Shown here in pieces: positions 1 to 19,492 of a stretch of DNA of 21,755 bases. The stretch comes from Cladochytrium replicatum (taxonomy: Eukaryota; Chytridiomycota; Chytridiomycetes; Cladochytriales; Cladochytriaceae). Location of the stretch: NCBI GenBank assembly GCA_025526935.1, contig JAHLKD010000171.1, positions 1 through 21,755 on the forward strand. The letters run 5' to 3'. Both the position numbers and the translations under genes were made by a program. Position 1 is the stretch's first letter. The number at the start of each line of letters is the position of its first letter. The notes under the pieces were generated by a model. That model was not told the DNA's origin, did no database searches, and saw nothing but the letters and a program-made list of their open reading frames with translations.

Positions 1-141
1 TAACTAACCCTAACTAACCCTAACTAACCCTAACTAACCCTAACTAACCCTAACTAACCCTAACTAACCCTAACTAACCCTAACTAACCCTAACTAACCC
101 TAACTAACCACTAACTAACCCTAACTAACCCTAACTAAACC
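1..141. repeat. Telomere-like array, 10-nt unit TAACTAACCC
   Basis: Ten perfect consecutive TAACTAACCC units fill 1-100. An 11-nt variant with one extra A follows (101-111), then two perfect units (112-131) and a degenerate one (132-141) before unique sequence. The G-rich strand is the minus strand (TTAGTTAGGG reading leftward), which is the orientation expected for a chromosome end at position 1. The unit equals TTAG plus the canonical TTAGGG. The inner border carries the only irregular units, as is typical of real telomeres. Calling it a telomere is an inference from position, orientation and sequence type. Confidence 0.9.
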
Positions 142-167
142 AGCTACAAGAGAGATTGAGGAAGCAT

Positions 168-382
168 GAATTACAGTTGAAGCAGAATAAATTGCATCTG
201 GAAGGTCCGTCCATGGTTAATAAAAATGGGTTGGACGGTTCGTCCGCGCCTAATAAAAACGCGTTGGACGGTCCGTCCGTGGCTGATAAATTCGAGGTGG
301 ACGGTCCGTCCGCATTTAATAAATTCGCGTCGGACGGTCCGTCTGAATGTTATTAACATTCCGGCTTGGAATAACTGTTAGT
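168..382. repeat. Subtelomeric repeat copy A with 33-bp minisatellite
   Basis: This 215-bp block recurs at 1151-1332. It starts GAATTACAGTTGAAGCAG, then carries four 33-bp units that each contain the 13-bp palindrome GGACGGTCCGTCC or a variant, and ends with the 17-bp palindrome GAATGTTATTAACATTC followed by CGGCTTGGAATAACTGTTAGT. Because 33 bp is 11 codons, an open frame crosses it on the plus strand (156-356, with an LDGPS-like motif repeated every 11 residues). The minus strand is also open across 359-171. Neither frame resembles a known protein. I read it as a minisatellite-type subtelomeric repeat whose coding status is unknown. Confidence 0.85.
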
Positions 383-1150
383 TTTTACCTCAATACCCTT
401 TTTTGTGTTTCTCTGAATTTACGCCAGACCATTGTCTGACTAATGCTCTTCTCCTCTCAGTACTGCTTGCTGGTCTTCATTGTTGTTGTCTTCGTTGTTT
501 TCGTTCTGGTCGAGGTCATTGTCGTGGCTACACTTGTCATCTCACTGGTGTTGTTCTTCTCCTCTCCCGCCATCAGCTCCTCTTGGTGCCCTCTCTCATC
601 CTGTTCCCGCTCCTACATCGCTGACAAGGTAAGATGTTTTTACTACACGTTGCTACCAAAGTTTTCCATTCACTGTTTGATTTCCAACAAAAGGCACTTC
701 TCTCGTGCTGCTTGTGTTTGCTGTTGTGTCCAGGTAAGTTTGCTGTTGTCGTCAAGGTAAGTTTGCTGTTACAAATTATTTATATTACCACAAATGAGCA
801 CTCACCGTTTAATTTTCTTCATGTGTCGTAATAGTCTTTTCTGCTGTCCGATTTCTCCCTGGTCGGAAGGTGAGTTGACAGAATTATGTTTTTGTTTCAG
901 CAAATCCAACTAATCACGTGAATTGTACCAGAGTCTGGTAAGATTCACGTGACCTCCCTGAAAAAGGTATTTGAGAATCTTTTTTTTCCCACTCAAAATA
1001 GAAGATGTGGGGTGCAAAAGCTTTGAAGTAGCAAAAGCAAAACTCTCCAAACCAATCTTCTGATCTGTCACATTTCTCCTTTTCTCGACATCTGCTCTTT
1101 TTTTGCAGTTCCAAATTCAGTAGTGTCGCCATTTTTAACCTTTCCCCTGT
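383..1150 (+). other. Spacer rich in splice signals, no assignable gene
   Basis: This 768-bp spacer separates the two subtelomeric repeats. On the plus strand it holds well-formed splice signals: acceptor-like CTCCTCTCAG near 459, donors AAGGTAAGAT near 626, CAGGTAAGTT near 733, AAGGTAAGTT near 756 and AAGGTGAGTT near 868, and acceptors TTTGTTTCAG ending at 900 and TTTTTTTGCAG near 1109. A frame at 443-760 encodes a strongly hydrophobic, Val/Leu/Phe-rich stretch that could be one membrane span. No family is recognisable. It could be a decayed multi-exon gene or a spliced non-coding transcript. Confidence 0.4.
716..770 (+). repeat. 22/23-bp tandem repeat containing splice donors
   Basis: The unit GTTTGCTGTTGT...AAGGTAA occurs at 716-737, 738-760 and, partially, 761-770. 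Each full copy ends in a consensus 5' splice site (CAG|GTAAGT or AAG|GTAAGT), so the repeat duplicates a donor rather than neutral sequence. Confidence 0.75.
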
Positions 1151-1332
1151 GAATTACAGTTGAAGCAGAATAAATTGCATCTGGAAGGTCCGTCCATGGT
1201 TAATAAGAACAGGTTGGACGGTCCGTCCGCGCCTAATAAAAACGCGTTGGACAGTCTGTCTGTGGCTAATAAATTCGCGTTGGACAGTCCGTCCGAATGT
1301 TATTAACATTCCGGCTTGGAATAACTGTTAGT
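1151..1332. repeat. Subtelomeric repeat copy B with 33-bp minisatellite
   Basis: This is the second copy of the block at 168-382, with the same start (GAATTACAGTTGAAGCAG) and the same end (CGGCTTGGAATAACTGTTAGT). It is 182 bp long, exactly 33 bp shorter than copy A, and has three internal units instead of four. The plus-strand frame stays open through the block and stops at the same TAA in the terminal palindrome, but no in-frame ATG precedes the block after an upstream stop. Several GGACGG sites are altered to GGACAG, so this copy has diverged more. Confidence 0.85.
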
Positions 1333-2356: not shown

Positions 2357-4550
2357 TCATCCGCCTCGCCTCCCCCCCCTCTCCATCAGCACAATCTCCT
2401 GCTCCGCATCCCTTCTCCTCCGCCCAATCCGCACCATCGGAGCCCTCAGCCGCCCAAAACTCCTCCTCCTCCGCTCCGCGTTCACCCCAACCCGATCCTG
2501 CACAACCACAACCGCAGGCCCTGTCGTGGTCGTCGCTTGCCCCTGTCCTTGTGCGCCCCCCCCGTCCTCGTCCTCATCGTCCACCGGAATCCCAAGAAAA
2601 CTCCTCAGATCCACCCTGCACAGCGGACACGCACAGCTCTGCTCGGCCAACCACACGTCGACGCACTCCTTGTGGAACACGTGTTCGCACGAAGGTAGCA
2701 CGCGCACCGCGTCGCCATCGTCGAAGCGCTCGAGACAGATCGAGCAAAGGGGTTTGGTCGGGTCGTGAAGTGTGGATGCGCGGGATCGCACACTCACGGC
2801 GCGTGTTGGGGGATAGACGTGTGTTGTTGACGAGTACGCAGGCTCGAGATCGATGGTCACGAGCTCAGGTGTCGGTTCAAGGACGGGGGGGTGCGGAGGC
2901 GAGGTGCTCGAGAGGTTCGAGTTGGATGGTGTGCTTGTGGTGAGGTTCGATTTCGATGGGATTCTAGAGAGAATGGGCTTGGACGGCGTGCTGGATGGAG
3001 TGCCAGAAAGTGTGTGTGGATTTGGAGGGTGTGCAGGTGAGGGTCGACTTGGTCTCGCCATTTGAAGACGTTCCCTCCTCCGTCGTTGCTACCAGTTTCG
3101 CCTCCTTTGTCTCCTTCGCTTCGTCCTTCACCTCAACCTTTGCTCCTTCCGCCTCCTTCTCTCCCCCTCCTTCTTCGTCGTCGTCCTCGAAATACTCCCC
3201 CTTGCGACGGAGCTCCGAAAGCCACCAGGAACGCGTAAATACCCTCTCCGGGATCTTTTTGATCGCGTCGGCACTCAACACGGGCCGTCTCTGCAATTGA
3301 AACGGCGTGTTTTCGATCCCAGCTGGCGCAAGTCCCATCTGCTGCCTTCTGGCCATCAGGTCACGCATGCGCCTGCGAACGCGCCATTGGAGGTACACTG
3401 ACGTAGGGACCCAGATCCCCAGCACGACAGCGATGCCAACGAGCCCGAGTCGAAGAAACTCGTCCATGGCGTTCGTGTCGGTCTTGAGCTCAACGGAGAA
3501 CGAGAGCCGAATGGCCTGGTTGATGCTCGTGGCGCGCATGTCCTTGAGAGCCTGGATGTTGGTCAGAGTGACGTTGGGGCGGGAGATGAAGGCAGTCGCG
3601 TAGTGGTTTGAGTAGAAGGTCGAGGAGAGGTTGGCGGATTCGAGAAGGTCTTCGGGATCGAGGAAACCAGACGAAGTGCGGGCACTGTCTCGGAGGAGGG
3701 CGTAGTCGTTCGGGTAGGCCGTGACGATGGCGGGAACGGTGAAAGGGGAGTCGTAGTCCTCGGCAAAGACCTTTTGGAGGTCGGATTTGTAAAACGCATC
3801 GACAGCAAACTGGGATTGGGAGGCGAAGATAAAGACAGCGACGAGAGATGCATTGAGAGAGGAGGAGGTGATGCGGGTCATGCGGGTGGTCATGGAGAGT
3901 CTGCATGCATTAGGCAGACCCTTATCGGCGAAATTGACCACACCGATGAGCGGATAGCCAGAGCTCAGTAGAGACCAGCCAGTGCGGGAATAGGTGATGC
4001 AGCCGTCACCGAGATCGACGAGGAGGCCAGCAACAGTGGGCGAGTTTGAGCCGACCCCGATGGTGGTGGGTCTGTTGTATGCAGAGCCAGAGATCTGCAT
4101 GGACTGGAAGTTGTACAGAGCGTTGACCACAGTGAGGTTCAGGATGTTAGGAAAATCTCCAGTGACGATGGAAGGACTTGGGATGGAGTAAGACGAGTTT
4201 GAGCCAGGGGATGAAGAGAGGGTCGAGTTTGCATCGGCCCACGGAAGTGGTTTAAGGACGGCAGATGTGTCGACGGAAGCGCCAAGACCGTTCGTAGCGT
4301 AGGCATCGTACTTTCTGTTTGCATCAGATACGTTGTTTGACGAGTAGCCTGAGGAGTAGGAGGGCGGAGTCCAGTTGGCACCCTGGTTCCCTAAAGAGTT
4401 GTTCCGCACATCATCGGTGTCGATGACAAACGGAACGTAGGGATGGCCCGAGCCGTTCGCAGCGACAGCCGCTGCATCAATGAAGAGGAGCGCTAGAAGC
4501 ACCAGCAGTCCATTGCTCCGACGACTCCAATCGCCGTCCGGGAACCCCAT
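2357..4550 (-). CDS. PA-TM-RING (RNF13/GRAIL-type) E3 ubiquitin ligase, frame junction unresolved
   Basis: Probably a membrane E3 ubiquitin ligase of the endosome/vacuole pathway. The first frame (4550-2964) gives a signal peptide (hydrophobic LLVLLALLFIDAAAVAA), a Ser/Asn-rich N-glycosylatable lumenal region, a protease-associated domain (about residues 130-260), one transmembrane span (about 368-388, LGLVGIAVVLGIWVP) and a charged cytosolic tail. The second frame (3088-2357) is Ser/Pro-rich and then carries a complete C3H2C3 RING-H2: CSIC, CEHVFHKEC, CPLC. This PA-TM-RING order is the family's standard architecture, so I treat it as one gene. The frames overlap at 3088-2964, and joining them needs an intron whose length is 1 modulo 3, or an indel. 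The best acceptor is TTCTCTCTAG ending at 2964, but available donors (GTCTTC at 3069, GTCGAC at 3048) are poor. The alternative is two separate or broken genes. Confidence 0.75.
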
Positions 4551-11275: not shown

Positions 11276-13646
11276 CTAGCAAGTCGGGTCGACCGTAAAG
11301 TCATCCTCGAACGTTGTGTCTCCAGCTTTGATGTTAAAGCCCAACCCCCTCTTTGCGAAACCAGCCTGAATCTCACACTTCAATTTCCCACCGTTAAACT
11401 CCTGGTCCGCCACTAAGATAGCGTCCCTGGCGTCGATCACGGTCGGGTTGCATGGCAACAACTTCAACGAGTCGATAACGATCTGCATCAAAGTCGTGTT
11501 CCCCTTCCCGCTCTTTGCGTCGTCCTTGAGGTTATCCGACGCGCCCAACTTCTCCACGACGTTCCAGTACACCTCGTACAGCATCTCCATGAACACCTCA
11601 CCGATGAAGTGCACGTCCTGGTTATCCAGCGCACCTGAGGTGCGAATAGCCGAGTACGTGTTTTTGTTTACCGCGGTGGACGTGGAGTACTGCTGGGTTC
11701 GCACACCCTTTGCAGAGTTTGTGACGTAGGTTCCGACGCCGATGTTGAGTGCCCTGGTGTCGGTCGATTTGATGACGGGGAGCACGCCGAAGAAATCAGA
11801 CCAACCTTCACCGAGACCGACCGATTCAACGGTGGTCAGGCAGTTCGCGTTGGCGTTGCCGCCGACGAGACGGTTCGACACGCCGTGGCCGAGCTCGTGG
11901 AGGACGATGGGGTTCTCGAGGGCACCGTCGCGGCCGGGGTTGGTGAGGGTGAAGACGAACATGCGCATGCGGCCGGGGGTTCCGTCCGGAGGCGTGGCGA
12001 ACTAGAAACGAAGTGAATCAGAGCTTTGGAATTCGTCAACTATTTTTCTTTGGAAACTCACGTTGGCGTTGTTGGTGCCCGAACCGTCCTGGGCAGATGC
12101 GACGACTGGGTCGTTGCCCTTCCCGCCCTTGCCAAAGTTGTCAAACTGGAAGTTTCCGGTAGCCTCCGTGAACCCGTAGGCGTAGAACAAGTCGTGGGCG
12201 GCGTTGGATACAAAGAACATGTTTGTGATACTTGCGTCAACGTATTCCGGTGGCTCCTGAGTCGTGTCGTCGACGGCGAAGTTGAACACAAAGTTGCGGT
12301 TACCGTTCGCACGCTGGTTGTTGATCACATTGTTTGCGTCCTGGGGGTTTGACACCGCAACGACGTTGTTGCCAGCAGTCGTTGCCGATGCACCGCGGCC
12401 GTTATTGAAGTCGTTCCAGCCGACCGGGGAAAACTTCGGGTCCTCGGGTGACACCACGGTCTTGAGACCATCTTCGACCGAGACCTGGCCGAGCGGGACG
12501 ACCGACCAGGTGGTCTTGGGGATCGCACGGCGGTTCAGGGAGTTGTGAACGGGACCAGCAGACGAGAGCGCATGCTCGCGGACGATTTCATTAACAGAGC
12601 GGGCAAAGTATGCGCGGCTGCCTCCGGTACGGCGGGTGAACCGGGATTTCGAGTGGCAGGTGAGGCGGTTGGACGCAGCACGGCGGGATAGACCGGTTTC
12701 GCGGCGGGCGAGGCGGTTGGAGCTGTCGCGCTTGGAGAGGTGAGTGTAGGGGTTGTGAAGGGGAATCATGGAGTTGGAGACCCAGTCGTTTGCACCAAGC
12801 ACCTGGCCATTGGTAGCACTGACAATGACGCTTGGCCTGAAAAGCAAATTAATCAAGTCAGTGCTTCTTCAAAGCTTTACCACTAGTAAAGTCTCACCAT
12901 GCATCCTCCATTTCGACAGCGAACGACCAGACGAGCTCGGCGGTCTTGTCTTTGGTCTGGTAGTATTTGAGTTTGGGCTCTACGGGTGAGAGAGCGCCTG
13001 GGACCCCGGTGATGGATGGAGTGTCCTCTGCACCAGTGCTCTTCAGCTTCTTGGCTTTGAAGGATTTGTCGCCGACAGAGTGAACGAAGGCTACGACGGC
13101 GTCAACAGCAGAAACAGCGGGAGTGTCAATGACAGCTTCGGCAACGACATCCTCCTCATCCGCAATATCCTTCTCCTCGGTCACATCCTCTTCTTCCTCC
13201 TCATCGTCATCCTCATCGGTGCGAGCACGCTTGATCACCCTTTTCTTCTTAGCGGTGGTGTCATCGAACCACGACGAACCCCACGAGAGAACCTTTCCCT
13301 CCTTCGAAACAACGACGCTGACATGGCTGTTTGCGAACGACTTGCCGTTCTTCAGCTGTGTTGCATGGACAATGGTCGCCCCGTTGTTGGGGTCCCTGTA
13401 TTCAGAAGTGAATTCGACAGCGGTGTCGAGGGAGTCGAGGTCGAGTTTGCTCTGGATGAATTCCCGAGCGATTTGAGCTGGATCGGAAGAACTCGCCTTG
13501 AAGGCCGGAGTAGTGGTGAAAGAGTGTTCTGGGTAGTAGTATGCGGGGAGTCTCGAATAGTGCTGCTCGTTGAGGGGAACCGAAGCGACGACCGAGAGCG
13601 AGGTTAGCGCTACAAGGCAGGCAGCCAACCACCTGAAGACCACCAT
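11276..13646 (-). CDS. Secreted M36 fungalysin metalloprotease, three exons, 749 aa
   Basis: Exons 13646-12898, 12836-12062 and 12001-11276 join in frame (2250 nt). Introns are 61 bp (GTGAGA...TTTTCAG) and 60 bp (GTGAGT...TTTCTAG), with CTGAC/TTGAC branch-like sites. Domains in order: signal peptide (1-22, LAACLVALTSLSVVAS), fungalysin/thermolysin FTP propeptide (about 50-125), an acidic insert (about 143-172), the rest of the propeptide, a basic stretch, and the M36 catalytic domain. The zinc site is complete: HELGH at 543-547 supplies two His ligands and the catalytic Glu, and GEGWSD (E573) supplies the third ligand. It is longer than typical fungalysins (about 600-650 aa), partly because of the charged inserts. 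The ATG at 13646 is the first start giving a signal peptide. Expected role: extracellular protein degradation after removal of the propeptide. Only about 60 bp separate its end from the LOR relic. Confidence 0.95.
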
Positions 13647-18364: not shown

Positions 18365-19492
18365 TTAGTCAACAAGGGTCAAATCAGATTGACGTGTAAG
18401 ACCAAGTGCGCGTGTGAATTTTGAAAATAATTTGAATGTCAAGGGTTTTGTGAAAATATCAGCAATTTGGTTCTCAGTATCAATATCTCTGAGTTCCTGC
18501 TGCTTCTGCTCAATTTGAAGATTCACAAACTTTTCTCGAACATCCATGTGTTTAGTTCTGTGATCATTAAGCAGGTCATTGGCAATAGACTGTGTAGAGG
18601 TATTATCTTGCCAGAGGATCATGGGCTTACTTTTGGATGAAATACCAATGGTTGCCATGAGGTTTTTTATCCACTTCATCTCACTTGATAATTCATTCAA
18701 CGCATATAACTCTGCTTCAGTGGAAGAGCAAGTTATAACCTGTTGCTTTGTAGACTGCCAGCAAACAGCTGCATTGGCAAACATTACAACATATCCTGTC
18801 CTGGAATAGCGAGCAGGATCATTTGCCCAGTCTGCATCAGCATATCCCATAGGGATGTGTTCATTTGATGCAAACTCATATACACCATCAGAGTGTACGT
18901 TGGGAGTGGGTATGTTGTTGCGTGTATCATGCAAACCATAGTCCCATGTTCCCAATAAGTAACGATGCAGGCGAGCTAGTGCCTTTTGTTCGCAAACTCG
19001 TGGTTCAACCTGATGTTGTGCCAAGACATTGACAGCATAAGATAAATCAGGTCTGGTCTTTGTAGCTAGGTACAAGATTTTCATGAGTTCCGAGCGAAAA
19101 ATAGTTGCATCATTTTTGGATAAAATAGGCAAGCTTGTTTCATGTTTGTAGTGAGAAGAAATAGGTGTTTTGGCTGGTTTAAGATTGGATTCCCATAATT
19201 TCAATCTCTGCAATATTTCCTTTGCATATTGAGCATTGGTTATGAAATAACCGTGAGTAGTTTTGATCAATTGCATTTTCAGAATCCATTTGGCTGTAGA
19301 GTGACTTCCGACCTTGAATGAGGAATTCAAGCCATCCATGAAGTCTTGGTAGCCATTTGGGTCTGGAGAGAAATGAAGAATATCATCTACATGAACAGTA
19401 GTGTGTTCACGTATTTTCACAGTGGAACTGTGAGTAGATGGTTTCATTTGCCAGAAATGACAAGCATCTGAAAGATCACGGATGTATCCCAT
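18365..19492 (-). pseudogene. Copia reverse transcriptase (C-terminal part) and RNase H
   Basis: This is the longest intact frame of the element (375 codons). It holds the RT active-site motif as HVDDIL (the Tyr/Phe usual before VDD is His), then thumb-like sequence. The RNase H domain includes GYADADWAND, YSRTGYVVMF, STEAELYALNE, ILWQDNTSTQSIAND and the closing TKHMDVREKFV and DIFTKPL motifs. Acidic residues for RNase H are present. The frame enters at about 19492, where it overlaps the upstream RT fragment in another phase. Confidence 0.9.

Follow-up and report, generated by a model that had tools for sequence, protein, structure and literature searches.

Which repeat closes the chromosomes of Cladochytrium replicatum, a chytrid of the order Cladochytriales (Chytridiomycota), and how is it made? 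The question is raised by the first bases of contig C171, whose 21,755 nucleotides are the window analysed here and which is one of 198 contigs in an assembly of 50,508,147 bases. Positions 1 to 138 of the window hold, on the minus strand, a telomere array (TTAGTTAGGG)n of 13.7 copies that reads towards the contig edge at base 1. Tandem Repeats Finder describes it by a period of 10, 98% matches and the unit TAACTAACCC, which is the complement of a rotation of TTAGTTAGGG. A sequence-only reading of the window had seen ten perfect repeats starting at the edge, and ten perfect ten-base units do fill bases 1 to 100. Its extent of 1 to 141 has to be corrected, as the array ends at 138 and includes one irregular unit: an irregularity near base 110, with the G-strand reading TTAGTTAGTGG at 101 to 112 (minus strand), is followed by more units. 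The analysis of the whole assembly confirms that this ten-letter repeat forms the chromosome ends of C. replicatum, replacing the common TTAGGG.

Two consecutive units, taken as a 20-mer, have 743 exact matches across the assembly (382 + 361), whereas the same pattern read backwards has none, so the array in the window is not a product of chance. Of the 100 matches listed, 99 are no further than about 175 bases from a contig end, and a single one is internal (C1:73712). Arrays of TTAGTTAGGG were found at 55 distinct telomeric contig ends, and C23 is the only contig among them that is telomeric at both. These ends were picked through the TTAGTTAGGG pattern and its pieces, with at least four units each, and their agreement is consequently in part a matter of selection. 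Throughout, the G-strand runs 5′ to 3′ towards the contig end, so that tandem, short, G-rich repeats stand at 55 contig ends in constant orientation, as in telomeres maintained by telomerase. The arrays measure 94–178 bp (median 136), lengths that assembly clipping may have shortened. The 567 20-mers within 56 counted loci, one contig end being entered twice, extrapolate to roughly 73 arrays genome-wide, and the unit was absent from the first 400 bases of all eight of contigs C1–C8. A count of (TTAGGG)3, which is independent of how the ends were selected, gave a single match in 50.5 Mb (C114:76333), and the two backward controls gave one match each. The suggestion that the array differs from plain TTAGGG is therefore upheld, and the check proposed for it, counting the unit at other contig ends, returned the 55 ends described above and no sight of a plain TTAGGG end.

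The arrays are highly regular. Leaving out the first token of each, the 55 arrays provided 683 scored tokens ending in GGG, and 639 of these are exactly TTAGTTAGGG. The variants comprise 14 units of TTAGGG, nine of TTAGTTTAGGG, three of GTTAGTTAGGG, two each of TTAGTTAGTTAGGG and TAGTTAGGG, and 14 types seen once each; the recurrent ones deviate at one point. An extra T fell ten times in the second TT of the unit and never in the first among scored units (two-sided p 0.002), and one unscored outer edge, that of the array on C44 (L073), does have extra T within the first TT. The three extra-G units (GTTAGTTAGGG) and the many single variants have no explanation here or may be sequencing noise.

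We consider it likely that these telomeres are made by an ordinary TERT telomerase, and its RNA template would probably read 5′-AACUAACCCUAA-3′, 12 nt in length. To judge from the repeat, this would be a TTAGGG-type template lengthened by CUAA, and copying it yields, by computation, TTAGGGTTAGTT. In each cycle, the TT at the chromosome end would pair with the AA at the template's 3′ end, the ten letters AGGGTTAGTT would be copied until copying stopped at the 5′ AA, and the new TT would then shift back onto the 3′ AA for the cycle to repeat. A 12-nt template with a realignment of 2 nt, which we infer from the products of synthesis, would explain the kinds of variant and also the junctions and tract ends described below. 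Units of TTAGGG would arise by release at the inner TT, those of TTAGTTTAGGG by pairing through one T, and those of TTAGTTAGTTAGGG if the TT paired with the inner AA; each would thus follow from one misstep of TT on a template AA. The extra T of Aspergillus telomeres has been given the same explanation, the template ends there sharing at least two nucleotides (PMC3603654). The earlier proposal that the array implies either a template for ten nucleotides or strictly alternating synthesis survives in part: the ten-base unit stands, with one template longer than 10 nt as its best explanation. Random mixing of TTAG and TTAGGG steps would not yield the observed proportion of exact units.

Where synthesis begins can be read from the boundary with unique DNA. 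Numbering the letters of TTAGTTAGGG from index 0 to 9, the first telomeric base falls at these positions in 1, 2, 1, 4, 15, 12, 12, 6, 2 and 0 arrays, respectively. Index 4–7, a start within TTAGGG, thus accounts for the junctions of 45 arrays out of 55 (tested against 0.4, p 2.6e-10, for phases picked after the counts were known), and from this the template's 3′ end would read ...CCCUAA. Ten junctions lie outside the favoured phases, four of them at index 3, and the fall from 15 to 4, 1, 2 and 1 is about that of chance matching past a fixed edge.

A template of another register, or one with a longer alignment region, might also generate a ten-base unit, although we regard this as rather unlikely. 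One example is 5′-CUAACUAACCCUAAC-3′, a human-type template with CUAA added. The human-type template CUAACCCUAAC is itself known from some Aspergilli (PMC3603654), exact 15-base tracts of the longer form occur internally at C14:367791 and C19:540404, and a template ending in ...UAAC would likewise give the four junctions at index 3. Longer alignment, however, predicts junctions further upstream than T4, where the counts drop to about chance level, and it does not readily produce the one-T slip. The sites on C14 and C19, moreover, are without telomerase RNA features, and the latter adjoins sequence resembling C149:40547. Far less probable is synthesis in two steps, in which two templates or two telomerase RNAs would add TTAG and TTAGGG by turns. 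The 14 plain TTAGGG units, two extra TTAG and one more with an extra T, among the 683, are what such a scheme might leave behind, but alternation as strict as that observed would need a memory that two independent templates should not supply. That the array is instead an assembly artefact, an internal satellite or the end of a transposon is hardly credible, for although several loci have a repeated element next to telomeric letters and interstitial tracts are present, the arrays lie at 55 contig ends with varied neighbours, constant orientation and short, similar lengths, in a genome with a TERT gene.

Support for the single 12-nt template with two-nucleotide realignment also comes from two interstitial tracts with empty-site relatives, few as they are (n = 2). 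An 18S rRNA copy on C104 contains a 13-bp insert, AACTAACCCTAAC, that is absent from both other copies spanning the site (C41 is clean, C2 further changed), three more 18S matches falling short of it. A subtelomeric repeat on C168 has the G-strand sequence ATGCAT-AAATT-AGGGTTAGTTAGGGTTAGTT-TA-GCCGG, and its five aligned relatives lack the tract: four other copies have ATGCATGTAAATTCATGTTTCCTGCCGG at this site, and the C104 copy is slightly different. If the AAATT of C168 belongs to the original genomic sequence, the addition would amount to exactly two rounds of ten bases. Both tracts finish in TTAGTT. The tract on C104 exceeds one template copy by a base, which must therefore have been contributed by either the flank or the template. 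In mammals, telomeric insertions at breaks have been reported and attributed, probably, to telomerase (PMC7215372). The 18S and 5.8S unit that carries the C104 insert (L047 2983-5183) has low scores given its length (1061.8 bits for SSU, 73.2 bits for 5.8S), and it may be an rDNA copy in decay. Downstream of it, L047 6500-6760 has 66 matching places, of which many are no more than a few kb away from a contig end and some are in tandem; from this placement the sequence appears to be a subtelomeric repeat, shared by C3, C23, C41, C47, C60, C83, C141 and others.

Next to the telomere of the window, and outside it, lies a repeated element of 33-bp units holding GGACGGTCCGTCC (139 to 381, plus strand), with a second, partial copy at 1150 to 1331 (plus strand). 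Further copies were observed at L001, L023, L024, L030, L065, L066, L075 and L112. The element borders the telomere at C98 as it does in the window, and there are other copies that finish in telomeric letters. Those on C46 (L030) and C1 (L023) pass through ...AACTGTT and then AGGGTTAGTT into differing flanks, as one round of telomerase might leave them, and other copies do not. These two ends give a faint hint of one-round synthesis, and shared descent of both is possible. Also on C1, at about 73.6–73.8 kb (L001 2125-2290), degenerate telomere units come directly after a 5S rRNA match of 52.9 bits, and a copy of the element comes next. By its position, the element recalls the MoTeR elements inserted in the telomeres of Pyricularia (PMC8381367). 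Elsewhere in the window, a RING-finger protein gene (2357-4550, minus strand) has a relative in the same species with 79% identity, at least two exons of a gene for a fungalysin M36 metallopeptidase occupy 11276-12856 (minus strand), and an open frame at 18365-19492 (minus strand) has a weak RVT_2 reverse transcriptase match below the cut-off. The last is presumably the end of a Copia-type element.

The protein half of the proposed enzyme is present. A TERT gene on C47, for which a hand-guided spliced model gives 961 aa, matches the Pfam TEN (36.9 bits), RNA-binding (88.5 bits) and RVT_1 (45.2 bits) families above their cut-offs and TERT_C (20.9 bits) below its cut-off of 27. Among its relatives are, at 31%, named TERTs from Basidiobolus and, at 32%, a protein from the chytrid Thoreauomyces, and its best match among solved structures is the TERT of 7qxa (E 5.7e-68), which we take to be human. 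For the end-binding protein POT1, one exon-sized partial match to the POT1PC family was found on C80 (33 bits, cut-off 27.2).

The RNA half was sought with five patterns for template pieces in different end phases, three of which, with two bases left free, do not catch every site. The internal loci examined were those of 15 of the 16 matches of one pattern (all except C174), all 19 AACTAACCCTAAD loci and those of a few matches of the three two-free-base patterns. At these template-like tracts, Rfam scans, pseudoknot scans and folding identified no telomerase RNA. The Rfam matches were to tRNA, to rRNA or at chance level. No pseudoknot was found at the candidate sites, and a relaxed scan scored 2 of 34 sites, at 21.8 and 18.4, where the best of 60 shuffles reached 27. 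Of 17 sites that were folded, two proved to be mostly open with a stem immediately 5′ of them, under limits set afterwards. These two, C131:26706 and C42:360662 (both on the minus strand), which are among the AACTAACCCTAA sites outside telomeres, may serve as leads only. Of the 45 matches to the pattern AACTAACCCTAAD, 24 belong to terminal arrays and 21 (19 loci) are internal; the backward pattern, a weak control, has three. Single-round insertions could account for the internal excess, which is inflated by repeats (three matches at C60; C128 and C157 near copies). Thirteen of the 19 internal loci start exactly at AACT, as chance predicts, and to this we attach no weight.

Contrary to the earlier impression that the unit had not been described as a fungal telomere, AACCCTAACT was reported in 2026 as the telomere motif of the ascomycete Morchella sextelata, in which 16 pseudochromosomes have it at both ends and the remaining 10 at one end (PMC13208314). 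The complement of that motif, AGTTAGGGTT, is a rotation of TTAGTTAGGG. By comparison of letters, C. replicatum therefore has the M. sextelata unit at its chromosome ends, which does not imply common descent. The two fungi are very distant from one another. The chytrid and morel occurrences are probably convergent, because Batrachochytrium dendrobatidis and most Pezizomycotina have TTAGGG. The former, also a chytrid, is reported to share the TTAGGG core in a six-base unit (PMC11797018), and the latter are so described in a survey whose section 7 names no chytrid (PMC10100673).

Other long telomere units invite comparison. Aspergillus oryzae has the 12-base TTAGGGTCAACA and A. aculeatus CATTTAGGGTTA. 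These resemble the chytrid arrays in that the units are long, regular and built around a TTAGGG core, that one template exceeds a unit in length and that extra-T slips occur at template AA; they differ in their added letters and in that telomerase RNAs are known there (PMC3603654). Ten-base units are also found in the bed bug Cimex, (TTAGGGATGG)n, an insect repeat with a TTAGGG core and ATGG in place of TTAG (PMC11354137), and in the plant Cestrum elegans, TTTTTTAGGG, where the T run is lengthened (PMC10100673, PMC10767889). Three further reports that hold the letters of the unit were set aside: those on a sea urchin and a birdwing butterfly concern irregular arrays of TTAGGG or TTAGG type, and in a Werner paper the letters lie within an oligonucleotide. 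As far as our searches show, which covered rotated forms in part so that further reports may exist, the occurrence in a chytrid, the proposed template and the reading by POT1 are new.

That reading starts from human POT1, whose minimal tight site is TTAGGGTTAG, with OB1 on TTAGGG and OB2 on TTAG (PMC8853558). The unit TTAGTTAGGG is an exact rotation of this site. That each unit preserves a whole POT1 site may be the reason why the change was tolerated. We speculate, and tentatively so, as the odds are somewhat against it, that the ten-base telomere arose independently in chytrid and morel since adding TTAG retains one complete POT1 footprint per unit, and that the chytrid telomerase moves with just two template-product pairs (TT on AA), yet makes about 94% of its units perfectly.

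Changes of the telomere repeat are infrequent, because the telomerase RNA has to match the proteins that bind the ends. That a chytrid and, according to a single report, a morel have an identical ten-base unit suggests that one path of change is favoured. A sharp, testable prediction of the template comes from the chytrid arrays, and their unit is long enough to assist in locating a telomerase RNA in chytrids; the 12-base unit of A. oryzae served in this way (PMC3603654). If our speculation is true, the evolution of telomeres would be channelled by the proteins that bind chromosome ends, and C. replicatum would possess a telomerase of minimal alignment.
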